A stretch of 54,723 bases of DNA, from positions 1 to 54,723 of the forward strand of contig JAIPED010000005.1 of the NCBI GenBank assembly GCA_021737325.1, read 5' to 3'. Numbering within the stretch: the first letter of the stretch is position 1; every line of letters begins with the position of its first letter. Origin of the DNA: Deltaproteobacteria bacterium (GTDB taxonomy: Bacteria; Desulfobacterota; Syntrophia; Syntrophales; JAIPED01). The position numbers and the translations under genes are program-made. Under the pieces are notes generated by a model. It was not told the DNA's origin. It worked only from the letters and a program-made list of their open reading frames with translations, and searched no databases. Shown one piece after another: positions 35,060 to 42,397 of the stretch.

Positions 35060-35078
35060 CGGAATGGTGGAGGGGTAA

Positions 35079-38000
35079 ATGTTTTTTCAGTTTAAGTCAT
35101 TGCGCGGGTTCTTCCATTCCGTGTTTTCTTTTGGCATGATAACAAGGTTCCGCTGGCATTTCTGCTGTAATGTGGCAGGAATTTCCGCGCCTGCGATAAT
35201 TATTTTCCCGCAACGGGCAAATGTTCTTTGTTGCGGCATTGCGGGGGTTATTGCTGTTAAACGGACCACTGATAATTGTAACACTGCGCAGGAGCTGATA
35301 GCCGATTGTTCCCAGTTGCTTGAAACACTGCATTCGGCGGTTATCGCCAATGACCTCGTAAACCAAGAAGCAACAATAAAGCATTTTTATGAAGAGTTGC
35401 TACTTCTACGAGATGAAGATCTCCTGGCGACGATAATCGCTTCTTCTGCACTCGCGGCAAAGTTAAGACAGAGTTGTGAACAGATAGCCAGCGTACTTGC
35501 GGCGGCTAATGAGTATCGTAAGCGAAAGATTGAGACAATTTCCAGCGTTGCTTTAGAGCAGATAAACGAAAAGATAGTTATGCTTGAAGATGCCCACTGG
35601 GTTTTGGAAAGGGACATCCTCGCCAATATCCTTCCAATAAAAGCGCTTGCGGGAGACAGGGTTTCCCCGTTTGGTCTCAAGATGTTTGCACGGATTAACT
35701 TCGTTCTCAACAGCATTTACCGTCTGGAGGTTCGTGGGCGCGATTCGGCGGGAGTAGAAGTTGATTTTTCTTTTAAGCCGGAGATATTTACCGGAATTAT
35801 CAAGGAGATTGAGGAACAAGGGCTTGGAGAGGATTTTCGCTCTCGTTCTCTGTCAGGCGATTCCCTTTCTGGTTCTATCGGTGTTGCTTCAAGCGAGAAA
35901 CAAGTAGTGGTATCGTTTACCTATAAGACCTTTTCCGTCGTGGGTGAGCTAGGTAAAAATGTGCGCGACCTACGAGAACGCATTGGCCGCGATGCCCTTT
36001 TATCTTTTTTTGCGATGATTCCCTCAGAGAATGATGCCATTTTTTCGCACACTCGCTGGGCGTCGGTAGGTGCCATTTCCGAGGGAAACTGCCATCCACT
36101 CAATAACTACAGCCCCTCTCTCGCGTCAGAAAGCCGGATTAGCGTTGTTCTTAACGGTGATATTGATAACTATTCCTCTTTGCGGGAGCATCTGGAGGGC
36201 GGTAAGAACTTGATTGATACTGCCATTTCAACCGATACCAAGATAATTCCCTTAATGGTGGATAGCTTTCTGCGTGAAGGAAAAAACATTGAAGAGGCTT
36301 TTCGACTGGCGCTTTGTTCTTTTGAAGGCTCCCATGCCATTGCCATGCGTAGTTCACTCGCACCAGGAAAGATATTTCTTGCCCAAAAAGGTAGCGGACA
36401 AACAATATATGTTGGCTTTGCTAAGCGGGGTTATGTCTTTTCCTCGGAACTTTATGGCTTGGTGGAAGCAACAAACGATTTCATTCGTTTGGATGGCGAA
36501 GCTTTATCCATAAACGGCAATAGCGGGCAGTTGTTGGTGTTAGAACAAAACAGTGAAGGCGGCTTAGCGGGTATTCGTGCCTGTTTTTATGACGGCACAC
36601 CGCTACAGTTTTCCTTAAATGATGTTGGCAAGGCAGAAATGACGACCCGCGATATTGATAGGGAAAACTTTCCCCACTATTTCCTCAAGGAAATCATGGG
36701 AGCGCCCCGCTCCGTTGCCAATACTTTAATGGGAAAATATCGCTACATCACTAATGATGGTCTTCGTCGTGTAGAGTTTAACCTCGGTGCTGATGTTATC
36801 CCTCCTGATCTTTTGGAGAGGATGAGGGCAAGGGCCATTCGCGATATTTTCGTCATTGGACATGGCACTGCCGGTGTTGCTGCCAATGCGGTGGCGGAGG
36901 CCTTGGCCCGTTATTTTGGAGATAGCCCCATTCGTGTCAGAGCTAAAATAGCCTCGGAGCTCAGCGGTTTCCATCTTGAGCAGGATTTTTCCCGTGCCTT
37001 GGTTATTCCGATAACCCAGTCGGGCACGACGACCGATACCAACCGTGCGGTGGCGCTAGCCCGCGAACGGGGAGCAACAATTATTAGTATCGTGAACCGT
37101 CGGCAATCCGATATCACGGCAAAATCGCATGGAGTTTTTTACACTAGCAATGGCAGGGATGTGGAAATGTCCGTTGCATCAACAAAGGCCTTTTATTCGC
37201 AGATTGTTGCTGGGCATATTTTAGGCTTGGCGCTTGCCTCCGGTGCTGGCGAAATCGGTACCGAAGATCTCGTAAGCGAAATAGCAGCGCTGGAACGGAT
37301 TGTTCCCGCAATGCGGGAGACGCTGGTTAGTAAACATGAGGTTATCAAAGAGGCTGCGCGCTTTGCTGTCGGTGGTTCCCGCTACTGGGCAATTGTCGGT
37401 TCTGGCCCCAATAAGATAGCCGCCGATGAAATTCGTATTAAGCTGAGCGAACTTTGCTATAAAACCATTTCCACAGATATTGTTGAGGATAAAAAGCACA
37501 TTGATCTTTCTGCAGAGCCGCTTATCATCGTCTGTGCGGTAGGGACTCCCGAAAGTGTTCTAGAAGATATTGTCAAAGACACCGCTATTTTTAAGGCGCA
37601 TCGCGCCAAGGTTATTGTTTTTGCCGCCGAAGGAGAGAATCGCTTCGCGGGTATAGCGGATGCCGTTATTCCCCTAATTCCCGCCGAGTACCCTGGTAGC
37701 CTCATCATCAACACGGTTGCAGGGCATTTATGGGGATACTATGCGGCATGCTTTATTGATGAAGAGGCAAAGTTCTTTAAGAATTTCCGTTCCAAGCTAA
37801 ACGAGAGGCGAGCCTTCTTTAGCGCCGCAGGGAAGAGTGTTTATGAGCAATTGGGGGATTACGAGCTACAAAATTTGTCCACCGAATTTTCCCGCAAATT
37901 GCGCCAAAGAATATCCGCAGGTGCATTTTCCTCTGCCGAAAATCAAGACATTGCAGATATCCTTCTTTTGCTTAAATACGCCGCTGGCAAGCTTTCTACG

Positions 38001-38771
38001 GAAGACTTCTGGGAAGAATTTGGTGCGGAGCTGGGCGGAGATATAGCCTCTCCGTTAATTTCCTTGGACGGTGTGTTAAAGAAGCTGATAGAATCCCTCT
38101 CCCGACCTGTGGACGCTATCAGGCATCAGGCAAAAACGGTTACCGTTGGCACCAGTCGCAAAGAGGCGCCATTAAAGGGGATTATTTTTAATTTGCTTAG
38201 CGATTTAGGGTTTTCATTCAGGGATATTGCCAGCCGTAACGCTCTTGCCCTAATGAGGGTGCAGCCAGTAATTGCCTCGCTTGAAGGGTACACGCTATAT
38301 CTGGTTGAGGGTTTAGATAAGAACTCCCTGCCCTGTGATGACACAACTATAAGGATAACGAGGCGGGCTGGTGTTTCCTCTCAAATGGTTTCCCGAACAG
38401 GGAACAATGGTGGATTGCTTGGCACGAAACGAACAATTGTCCGCAAGAAGGATATCTATATTGGACAGGGTAAAGTTGATGGAGCGCCGCTTGTTGTTTT
38501 TCCACTCAGACACGGGACCGATACTGCAAAAATCTTTTTGTTGCTCATCCATGTTGTATTTGCTGAGAACCTCCCCTGGGAGGCGAAAAAACGCTCGTTG
38601 GGTACACGCTATGGCGATATCCGCAATCTGATAAATGAATATAACATAAGCTGGAGCGAAGATTACATCAAGGACTACCCGCTTGCGAGATTACTAGGAG
38701 AGCAAGCTGAGGTCATCGCTTTGGAAATCAAGAATACGGGTAATAAACCGTGCAATCCCGGAAATAAATAG
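35079..38771 (+). CDS. Giant GlmS-like protein (glutamine amidotransferase + two SIS domains) with insert and C-terminal extension
   Basis: The order of domains is that of glucosamine-6-phosphate synthase, but at 1230 aa it is twice the usual 610. The class II amidotransferase motif CGIAGVIAV has its cysteine at C52, not at position 1 or 2, so a 51-residue leader must be removed for activity, as in GltB. About 150 residues of helical sequence separate it from RGRDSAGVEV, which normally follows within 30 residues. Further amidotransferase blocks are SHTRWASVGAISEGNCHPLNN and VLNGDIDNY. SIS domain 1 has TQSGTTTDTNRAV; SIS domain 2 has EIRIKLSELCYKTIS and DKKHID. About 260 extra C-terminal residues are unrecognised. 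GGAGGGG precedes the ATG. The product may be an aminosugar synthase with another sugar substrate. Confidence 0.8.
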   Translation: MFFQFKSLRGFFHSVFSFGMITRFRWHFCCNVAGISAPAIIIFPQRANVLCCGIAGVIAVKRTTDNCNTAQELIADCSQLLETLHSAVIANDLVNQEATIKHFYEELLLLRDEDLLATIIASSALAAKLRQSCEQIASVLAAANEYRKRKIETISSVALEQINEKIVMLEDAHWVLERDILANILPIKALAGDRVSPFGLKMFARINFVLNSIYRLEVRGRDSAGVEVDFSFKPEIFTGIIKEIEEQGLGEDFRSRSLSGDSLSGSIGVASSEKQVVVSFTYKTFSVVGELGKNVRDLRERIGRDALLSFFAMIPSENDAIFSHTRWASVGAISEGNCHPLNNYSPSLASESRISVVLNGDIDNYSSLREHLEGGKNLIDTAISTDTKIIPLMVDSFLREGKNIEEAFRLALCSFEGSHAIAMRSSLAPGKIFLAQKGSGQTIYVGFAKRGYVFSSELYGLVEATNDFIRLDGEALSINGNSGQLLVLEQNSEGGLAGIRACFYDGTPLQFSLNDVGKAEMTTRDIDRENFPHYFLKEIMGAPRSVANTLMGKYRYITNDGLRRVEFNLGADVIPPDLLERMRARAIRDIFVIGHGTAGVAANAVAEALARYFGDSPIRVRAKIASELSGFHLEQDFSRALVIPITQSGTTTDTNRAVALARERGATIISIVNRRQSDITAKSHGVFYTSNGRDVEMSVASTKAFYSQIVAGHILGLALASGAGEIGTEDLVSEIAALERIVPAMRETLVSKHEVIKEAARFAVGGSRYWAIVGSGPNKIAADEIRIKLSELCYKTISTDIVEDKKHIDLSAEPLIIVCAVGTPESVLEDIVKDTAIFKAHRAKVIVFAAEGENRFAGIADAVIPLIPAEYPGSLIINTVAGHLWGYYAACFIDEEAKFFKNFRSKLNERRAFFSAAGKSVYEQLGDYELQNLSTEFSRKLRQRISAGAFSSAENQDIADILLLLKYAAGKLSTEDFWEEFGAELGGDIASPLISLDGVLKKLIESLSRPVDAIRHQAKTVTVGTSRKEAPLKGIIFNLLSDLGFSFRDIASRNALALMRVQPVIASLEGYTLYLVEGLDKNSLPCDDTTIRITRRAGVSSQMVSRTGNNGGLLGTKRTIVRKKDIYIGQGKVDGAPLVVFPLRHGTDTAKIFLLLIHVVFAENLPWEAKKRSLGTRYGDIRNLINEYNISWSEDYIKDYPLARLLGEQAEVIALEIKNTGNKPCNPGNK

Positions 38772-41717: not shown

Positions 41718-41746
41718 TTGACAAAGGGTTTTTAAAAAAAGTAGGT
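41718..41746 (+). promoter_or_regulatory. Likely stable-RNA promoter for the tRNA-secE-nusG transcript
   Basis: A consensus -35 TTGACA (41718-41723) is followed 17 bases later by GTAGGT (41741-41746), a weak -10, and by a GC-rich discriminator GCCCCGC, as in stringently controlled tRNA promoters. Confidence 0.4.
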
Positions 41747-41747
41747 G

Positions 41748-41762
41748 CCCCGCTTCGCGGGG
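41748..41762 (+). other. Perfect GC hairpin at the 5' end of the tRNA transcript
   Basis: CCCCGC-TTC-GCGGGG would form the first structure of the transcript, 17 bases before the first tRNA. It has no U tract, so it is not a terminator; it may protect the 5' end or mark an RNase cleavage site. Confidence 0.45.
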
Positions 41763-41778
41763 TGTGGTCTTGGCGATG

Positions 41779-41853
41779 GCTGGCGTAGCTCAACGGTAGA
41801 GCAGCTGATTTGTAATCAGCAGGTTGCGGGTTCGAATCCCATCGCCAGCTCCA
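41779..41853 (+). tRNA. tRNA-Thr (anticodon TGT)
   Basis: The acceptor stem GCTGGCG/CGCCAGC, D loop, anticodon stem GCTGA/TCAGC with loop TTTGTAA, the T arm with GGTTCGAATCC and an encoded CCA are all present. Confidence 0.96.
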
Positions 41854-41866
41854 TGGCGCGATTAGC

Positions 41867-41951
41867 GGAGGGGTTCCCAAGCGGCCAAAGGGAGCAGACT
41901 GTAAATCTGCCGGCGAAGCCTTCGGTGGTTCGAATCCACCCCCCTCCACCA
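41867..41951 (+). tRNA. tRNA-Tyr (anticodon GTA)
   Basis: The acceptor stem GGAGGGG/CCCCTCC, anticodon loop with GTA, long variable arm typical of bacterial tRNA-Tyr, T arm GGTTCGAATCC and an encoded CCA are visible. Confidence 0.96.
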
Positions 41952-41964
41952 TTTTTGGTTAAGA

Positions 41965-42040
41965 GCGGGAGTAGCTCAGGGGCTAGAGCATCAGCCTTCC
42001 AAGCTGAGGGTCGCGGGTTCGAATCCCGTTTCCCGCTCCA
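41965..42040 (+). tRNA. tRNA-Gly (anticodon TCC)
   Basis: The acceptor stem GCGGGAG/TTCCCGC (with a G-T pair), anticodon TCC in loop CTTCCAA, T arm GGTTCGAATCC and an encoded CCA are present. Confidence 0.96.
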
Positions 42041-42062
42041 GATGATGGTAAAATATTATCAT

Positions 42063-42138
42063 GCCCACGTAGCTCAGTAGGTAGAGCACATCCTTGGTAA
42101 GGATGAGGTCACCAGTTCAATCCTGGTCGTGGGCTCCA
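42063..42138 (+). tRNA. tRNA-Thr (anticodon GGT)
   Basis: The acceptor stem GCCCACG/CGTGGGC, anticodon stem CATCC/GGATG with loop TTGGTAA, T arm AGTTCAATCCT and an encoded CCA are seen. In E. coli and many Proteobacteria a tuf gene follows this tRNA; here rpmG follows 20 bp later. Confidence 0.96.
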
Positions 42139-42320: not shown

Positions 42321-42397
42321 AGGCCAGTAGCTCTAATGGATAGAGCGTCGGACTCCAAATCCGAATGCTGGGGGTTCAAGTCCCTCCTGGCCTGCCA
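42321..42397 (+). tRNA. tRNA-Trp (anticodon CCA)
   Basis: The acceptor stem AGGCCAG/CTGGCCT, anticodon CCA in loop CTCCAAA, T arm GGTTCAAGTCC and an encoded CCA tail (GCCA) are present, just ahead of secE as in many bacteria. Confidence 0.96.

Follow-up and report, generated by a model that had tools for sequence, protein, structure and literature searches.

The supply of cell-wall sugars is controlled, nearly universally, at glucosamine-6-phosphate synthase (glutamine:fructose-6-phosphate amidotransferase, GlmS), which is also a drug target. The DNA analysed here (the whole stretch of 54,723 nucleotides, hereafter the window) encodes a GlmS-like protein of twice the normal length, in which the catalytic cysteine lies behind a 51-residue leader. 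This raises the questions of whether the giant gene is genuine, how its nucleophile might become available and whether the protein is the organism's GlmS.

An intact open reading frame for a giant GlmS-like protein

The features of the locus, all on the plus strand, are as follows (aa: amino acids).

35069–35075, plus strand: Shine-Dalgarno-like GGAGGGG ahead of the ATG (direct sequence reading)
35079–38771, plus strand: open reading frame of the giant GlmS-like protein, 1230 aa, uninterrupted, ATG start
35079–35231, plus strand: conserved 51-aa leader, a probable propeptide, aa 1–51 (aligned in 66 sequences, with a fixed spacing from FP to Cys)
35232–35234, plus strand: Cys52, equivalent to the Cys1 nucleophile of E. 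coli GlmS (Cys in 75/75 sequences covering the site)
35265–35666, plus strand: helical insert 1, aa 63–196 (~134 aa), splitting the amidotransferase domain (alignment to E. coli GlmS; AlphaFold helices with pLDDT mostly 72–94)
35667–36518, plus strand: remaining class II glutamine amidotransferase domain with RGRDSAG, HTRWAS, NGD and TDT, aa 197–480 (invariant residues; Pfam GATase_6)
35775–35954, plus strand: insert 2 within the amidotransferase domain, aa 233–292 (about 60 aa; alignment to E. coli GlmS)
36711–37757, plus strand: two SIS (isomerase) subdomains, aa 545–893 (Pfam SIS 6e-15; TIGR01135 225 bits; Foldseek to E. coli GlmS, TMt 0.77)
37758–38102, plus strand: helical insert 3 ahead of the catalytic tail, aa 894–1008 (~115 aa; alignment and AlphaFold model)
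38103–38159, plus strand: GlmS catalytic C-tail RPVDAIRHQAKTVTVGTSR, aa 1009–1027, with the K603 equivalent at aa 1019 (A-K-T-V-T-V in 82/82 sequences)
38160–38768, plus strand: new C-terminal domain, aa 1028–1230 (~200 aa; AlphaFold model, PAS-like core at about aa 1052–1161)

The initial annotation of this DNA had described an open reading frame with a strong ribosome binding site at its ATG and a nucleophile, C52, lacking a nearby in-frame start, and our reading agrees on both counts: GGAGGGG precedes the ATG, Cys52 aligns with Cys1 of E. coli GlmS, no start codon adjoins Cys52 and the nearest in-frame starts before it are an ATG at aa 20 and a GTG at aa 32, both without a Shine-Dalgarno sequence. 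A protein of twice the normal length could nevertheless reflect an artefact, be it a wrong start, a frameshift or a fusion of neighbouring genes, and the initial annotation had itself named a start error or frameshift as the way in which it might be wrong. The relatives argue strongly against this, since dozens of them match in length and architecture, on which basis a start-codon or frameshift error was rejected; the identical architecture is present in dozens of independent assemblies, single-contig genomes included, and leader and insert are kept in sequence and register. We therefore regard an artefact as extremely improbable.

These relatives form a family of proteins of about 1,160–1,300 aa found in about 70 related genomes. 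Species genomes were scanned with peptide patterns specific to the query protein, which makes the scan no measure of absence elsewhere; it gave 21 loci with 41–55% identity (best segment), the full-length ones spanning nearly the whole protein, and all 21 lie in metagenome-assembled genomes labelled Deltaproteobacteria, Desulfobacterales (or kin), Syntrophales (or kin) or Proteobacteria/Pseudomonadota. The genes of genomes G028 and G037 are identical across the last 1100 residues to loci L003 and L022, and as these two loci are labelled Syntrophaceae, the order to which G028 and G037 belong is probably Syntrophales. Searches of plasmid, phage and viral contigs with the C-terminal domain or the whole protein returned no relatives. 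The window's own gene sits on a long branch (0.97) in a tree built from the catalytic core. Three loci (L116, L117 and L118; families f26 and f76) form a divergent leaderless branch of 1163–1170 aa, which may represent an older form of the family.

The catalytic core of GlmS is retained

Cys1, E488, H504 and K603 are published GlmS catalytic residues (PMC9272926). Alignment to E. coli K-12 GlmS showed that the amidotransferase residues C1, R26, D29, S30, H71-T72-R73-W74, H86, N98, G99 and D123 are invariant in the family, as are the isomerase residues Q348, S349, T352, S401, K485, E488, H504 and K603 in all sequences covering them (up to 82). The equivalents of E488, H504 and K603 are aa 791, 807 and 1019 respectively, kept in 82/82 sequences. 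The tail carrying K603 (PRNLAKSVTVE in E. coli) corresponds to AIRHQAKTVTVG, aa 1013–1024, and follows insert 3, the additional helical stretch of ~115 aa. The sugar-phosphate pocket is altered, with S303 replaced by Ala and E351 by Thr in every one of the 82 sequences and S347 by Thr in 69 of them, whilst Q348, S349, T352 and S401 are retained. With a TIGR01135 score of 225 bits the giant protein falls far below the equivalog threshold (curated cut-off 418), and we therefore class it as a divergent GlmS variant rather than as an equivalog member. The AlphaFold model of the mature protein (pLDDT 84) matched E. coli and human GlmS/GFAT over the whole chain in Foldseek (2j6h, TMt 0.77, rmsd 5.0).

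A conserved leader and the genomic neighbourhood of its bearers

To be active, a class II amidotransferase must have its Cys free at the N-terminus; GltB and PurF are the known members made with a propeptide. In the giant family a short leader pattern, G-x2-P...[SA]-[IV]-[IV]-x-F-P-x7-Cys, is common to 66 sequences, in which the last 28 leader residues align as W-R-[IV]-[YF]-x-G-[RK]-[DN]-P-x6-[SA]-[IV]-[IV]-[FL]-F-P-x5-L-x-C. Counted back from the Cys, Pro −8 is present in 66/66, Phe −9 in 63/66 and Gly −23 in 61/66, and residue −1 is variable (Cys, Phe, Ala or Asn). Since this pattern with Pro −8 is shared by 66 sequences, an annotation error does not account for the leader.

Six relatives, from three separate lineages, start directly at Met-Cys, and their ATG is preceded by a Shine-Dalgarno-like GGAGG or GAAGG. 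They are L043 and L049 (family f12), L104 (in G198, a one-contig genome of 4.46 Mb) and the divergent L116, L117 and L118. In L043, L049, L104, L116 and L117 the frame is closed by a stop codon two to eight codons ahead of the Met-Cys start. On the catalytic-core tree, which was built quickly and has a long branch to E. coli, the leader and Met-Cys states require at least three changes. Given these six leaderless relatives, the leader is best understood as being processed away to leave a free Cys1; the simplest and most likely interpretation of these sequences is that the leader would be a cleaved propeptide with which some members dispense, and the propeptide proposed in the initial annotation is thus well supported by comparison.

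Whilst pyrF lies upstream and genes for a short-chain dehydrogenase/reductase (SDR) and ssb lie downstream of the giant gene in the window, in relatives it often stands in a row of glutamine-dependent enzymes, the order being gltB pieces, pyrG, giant gene, hisH, hisF, purL and purQ at L018; glnA, carA and giant gene at L009; giant gene, guaA and pyrG at L003; and glmM, a NagB-like gene, giant gene and a guaA-like gene at L011. Varying combinations of such a glutamine-making and -using island (glnA, split gltB, pyrG, giant glmS, hisH, hisF, purL, purQ, carA and guaA) were observed at these four loci and at L004, L005, L012 and L022. Elsewhere in the window, a 111-aa open reading frame at 41745–42080 is not a protein gene, overlapping a run of tRNAs (Thr, Tyr, Gly, Thr) found by ARAGORN, which also placed a tRNA-Trp after this run at 42321.

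The strong conservation of the leader would equally be expected of a structural element, and together with the variable residue −1 it raises the alternative that the leader stays uncut as a folded N-terminal cap, glutamine hydrolysis being off or reduced and free ammonia being used. We consider this improbable given that the glutamine-site residues are all invariant, that the Met-Cys relatives span three lineages and that the neighbouring genes of relatives encode glutamine-dependent enzymes, and removal of the leader remains our preferred reading.

Inserts and the C-terminal domain

Insert 1 is all helix in the model and lies before RGRDSAG, as the initial annotation had it, although its length is ~134 rather than 150 residues; insert 2, between RGRDSAG and HTRWAS, was absent from that annotation. 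The same source had described the last 260 residues as lacking a clear relative. This does not hold for aa 1009–1027, which are the GlmS K603 tail, and it does hold for the insert of ~115 aa before the tail and the domain of ~200 aa behind it: insert 3 gave no sequence matches in Pfam or the PDB, and sequence searches of the same two databases with the C-terminal domain gave no relatives outside the family.

When modelled alone with AlphaFold, the C-terminal region (pLDDT 89) comprised a helical block, a beta-beta-alpha-alpha-beta-beta-beta unit and further helices. Its only significant Foldseek matches were two chains of L-GDH180 (7jsr, E 3.4e-4; global TM only 0.33), with several LOV/PAS domains among the weaker ones. 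Sequence homology to L-GDH180 was rejected, as hhalign against large-GDH alignments gave nothing. The PAS-like label, which comes from the topology and one strong Foldseek target with no Pfam hit, is given with moderate confidence, and the domain is plausibly allosteric. Its invariant residues (e.g. R1055, K1066, D1083 and H1107, mature numbering) are compatible with a putative ligand site.

The giant protein in place of canonical GlmS

Of 41 genomes from the order, probably Syntrophales, a TIGR01135 search detected the giant form in 36, with open frames mostly of 1230–1590 aa and shorter ones only at contig ends. No canonical GlmS above the TIGR01135 cut-off was present in any of the 41, and none was found in the genome carrying the window, a check that the initial annotation had proposed. 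As no genome of the order reaches the curated cut-off, the glmS of these bacteria would escape standard annotation. Of 297 genomes sampled from the phylum, 234 had canonical GlmS and 37 the giant-specific C-terminal region; canonical GlmS was present in 1/37 giant-positive and 233/260 giant-negative genomes (Fisher p 5e-28, counting genomes singly although they are not independent). Within this sample both forms occurred together only in G220 (giant locus L114), and neither was found in about 27 genomes, some of them nominally complete. The giant protein hence appears to have replaced normal GlmS across one bacterial order.

GlmM was above its cut-off in 39/41 genomes of the order. Reverse action of NagB, considered as another source of glucosamine-6-phosphate (GlcN-6-P), was rejected for the organism carrying the window, in whose genome (89% complete) no NagB match was found. 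With GlmM kept and no NagB match, the giant protein is the sole GlcN-6-P source found in that genome.

These data also bear on the substrate. The substitutions S303A and E351T in all sequences and S347T in most, together with a score far under the glmS cut-off, would fit an amidotransferase acting on a different sugar phosphate, i.e. a new aminosugar synthase. The invariant isomerase triad and K485, the retention of GlmM in an order that has no other GlmS and a distribution complementary to that of the canonical enzyme all speak against such a role, which we judge unlikely. Between the two options of the initial annotation, a new aminosugar synthase or a regulatory version of GlmS, the latter is the closer, given the conserved catalytic residues and the replacement of canonical GlmS, albeit with a pocket that differs at three positions.

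Two further observations concern the surrounding pathway. Many genomes of the order have, right next to glmM, a divergent NagB-like gene with an open frame mostly of ~320–370 aa (G005:C43, G018:C108, G035:C1:764271-765164 and others), including two, G005 and G018, in which neither form of GlmS was found. In 38/41 genomes GlmU matches covered the uridyltransferase half only (open frames of ~165–330 aa, e.g. G000:C26:6516-7247), and no GlmU above the full-length cut-off was found in the 41, so that acetylation of GlcN-1-P (or GlcN-6-P) must fall to another protein.

Proposed function

In our view the gene product is probably an enlarged form of the organism's own glucosamine-6-phosphate synthase, with the leader removed and with inserts and a C-terminal domain that are likely regulatory. 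The leader of ~51 aa would be removed from the precursor, in all likelihood through self-processing by the amidotransferase domain in the manner of GltB or PurF, freeing Cys52 as the N-terminal nucleophile. This Cys1 would hydrolyse glutamine, the ammonia would move to the SIS domains, and aa 791, 807 and 1019 would there perform the ketose-aldose isomerisation yielding GlcN-6-P for UDP-GlcNAc. A small ligand would most likely act through the helical inserts and the PAS-like domain behind the catalytic tail to set oligomer state or activity.

More tentatively, the family might constitute a second class of GlcN-6-P synthase with an architecture of its own, replacing canonical GlmS in whole lineages: a pro-enzyme in which leader cleavage exposes Cys1 and a PAS-like sensor of a kind not described before sits behind the tail. 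Were this so, entry into cell-wall sugar synthesis would depend both on maturation and on a ligand (e.g. UDP-GlcNAc or a nitrogen-status signal). A lineage-wide swap to a double-size GlmS with a propeptide and added new domains would amount to a novel mode of regulation of the GlcN-6-P step, and the occurrence of leadered and leaderless members side by side offers a natural system for studying the maturation of class II amidotransferases.

Comparison with known systems

We know of no GlmS with a propeptide, and a literature search for a GlmS propeptide or a giant GlmS found no paper. L-GDH180 (7jsr), which carries ACT-like and PAS-type sensor modules (PMC8175468), is likewise an enlarged metabolic enzyme, comparable in its added modules with the putative sensor of the giant protein, but it has another catalytic core and profile comparison showed no sequence homology. 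With GltB and the Bacillus-type PurF the giant protein shares a leader before a Cys that must be N-terminal, whilst its leader has a conserved sequence pattern of its own. GlmS itself (TIGR01135; E. coli 1jxa/2j6h; human GFAT-1) has in common with the giant protein the class II amidotransferase domain, two SIS domains and catalytic C-tail, all catalytic residues and the fold of the whole chain, to which the giant protein adds the 51-aa leader, inserts of ~134 aa, ~60 aa and, before the tail, ~115 aa, and the C-terminal domain of ~200 aa, along with three pocket substitutions and a family score below the cut-off.
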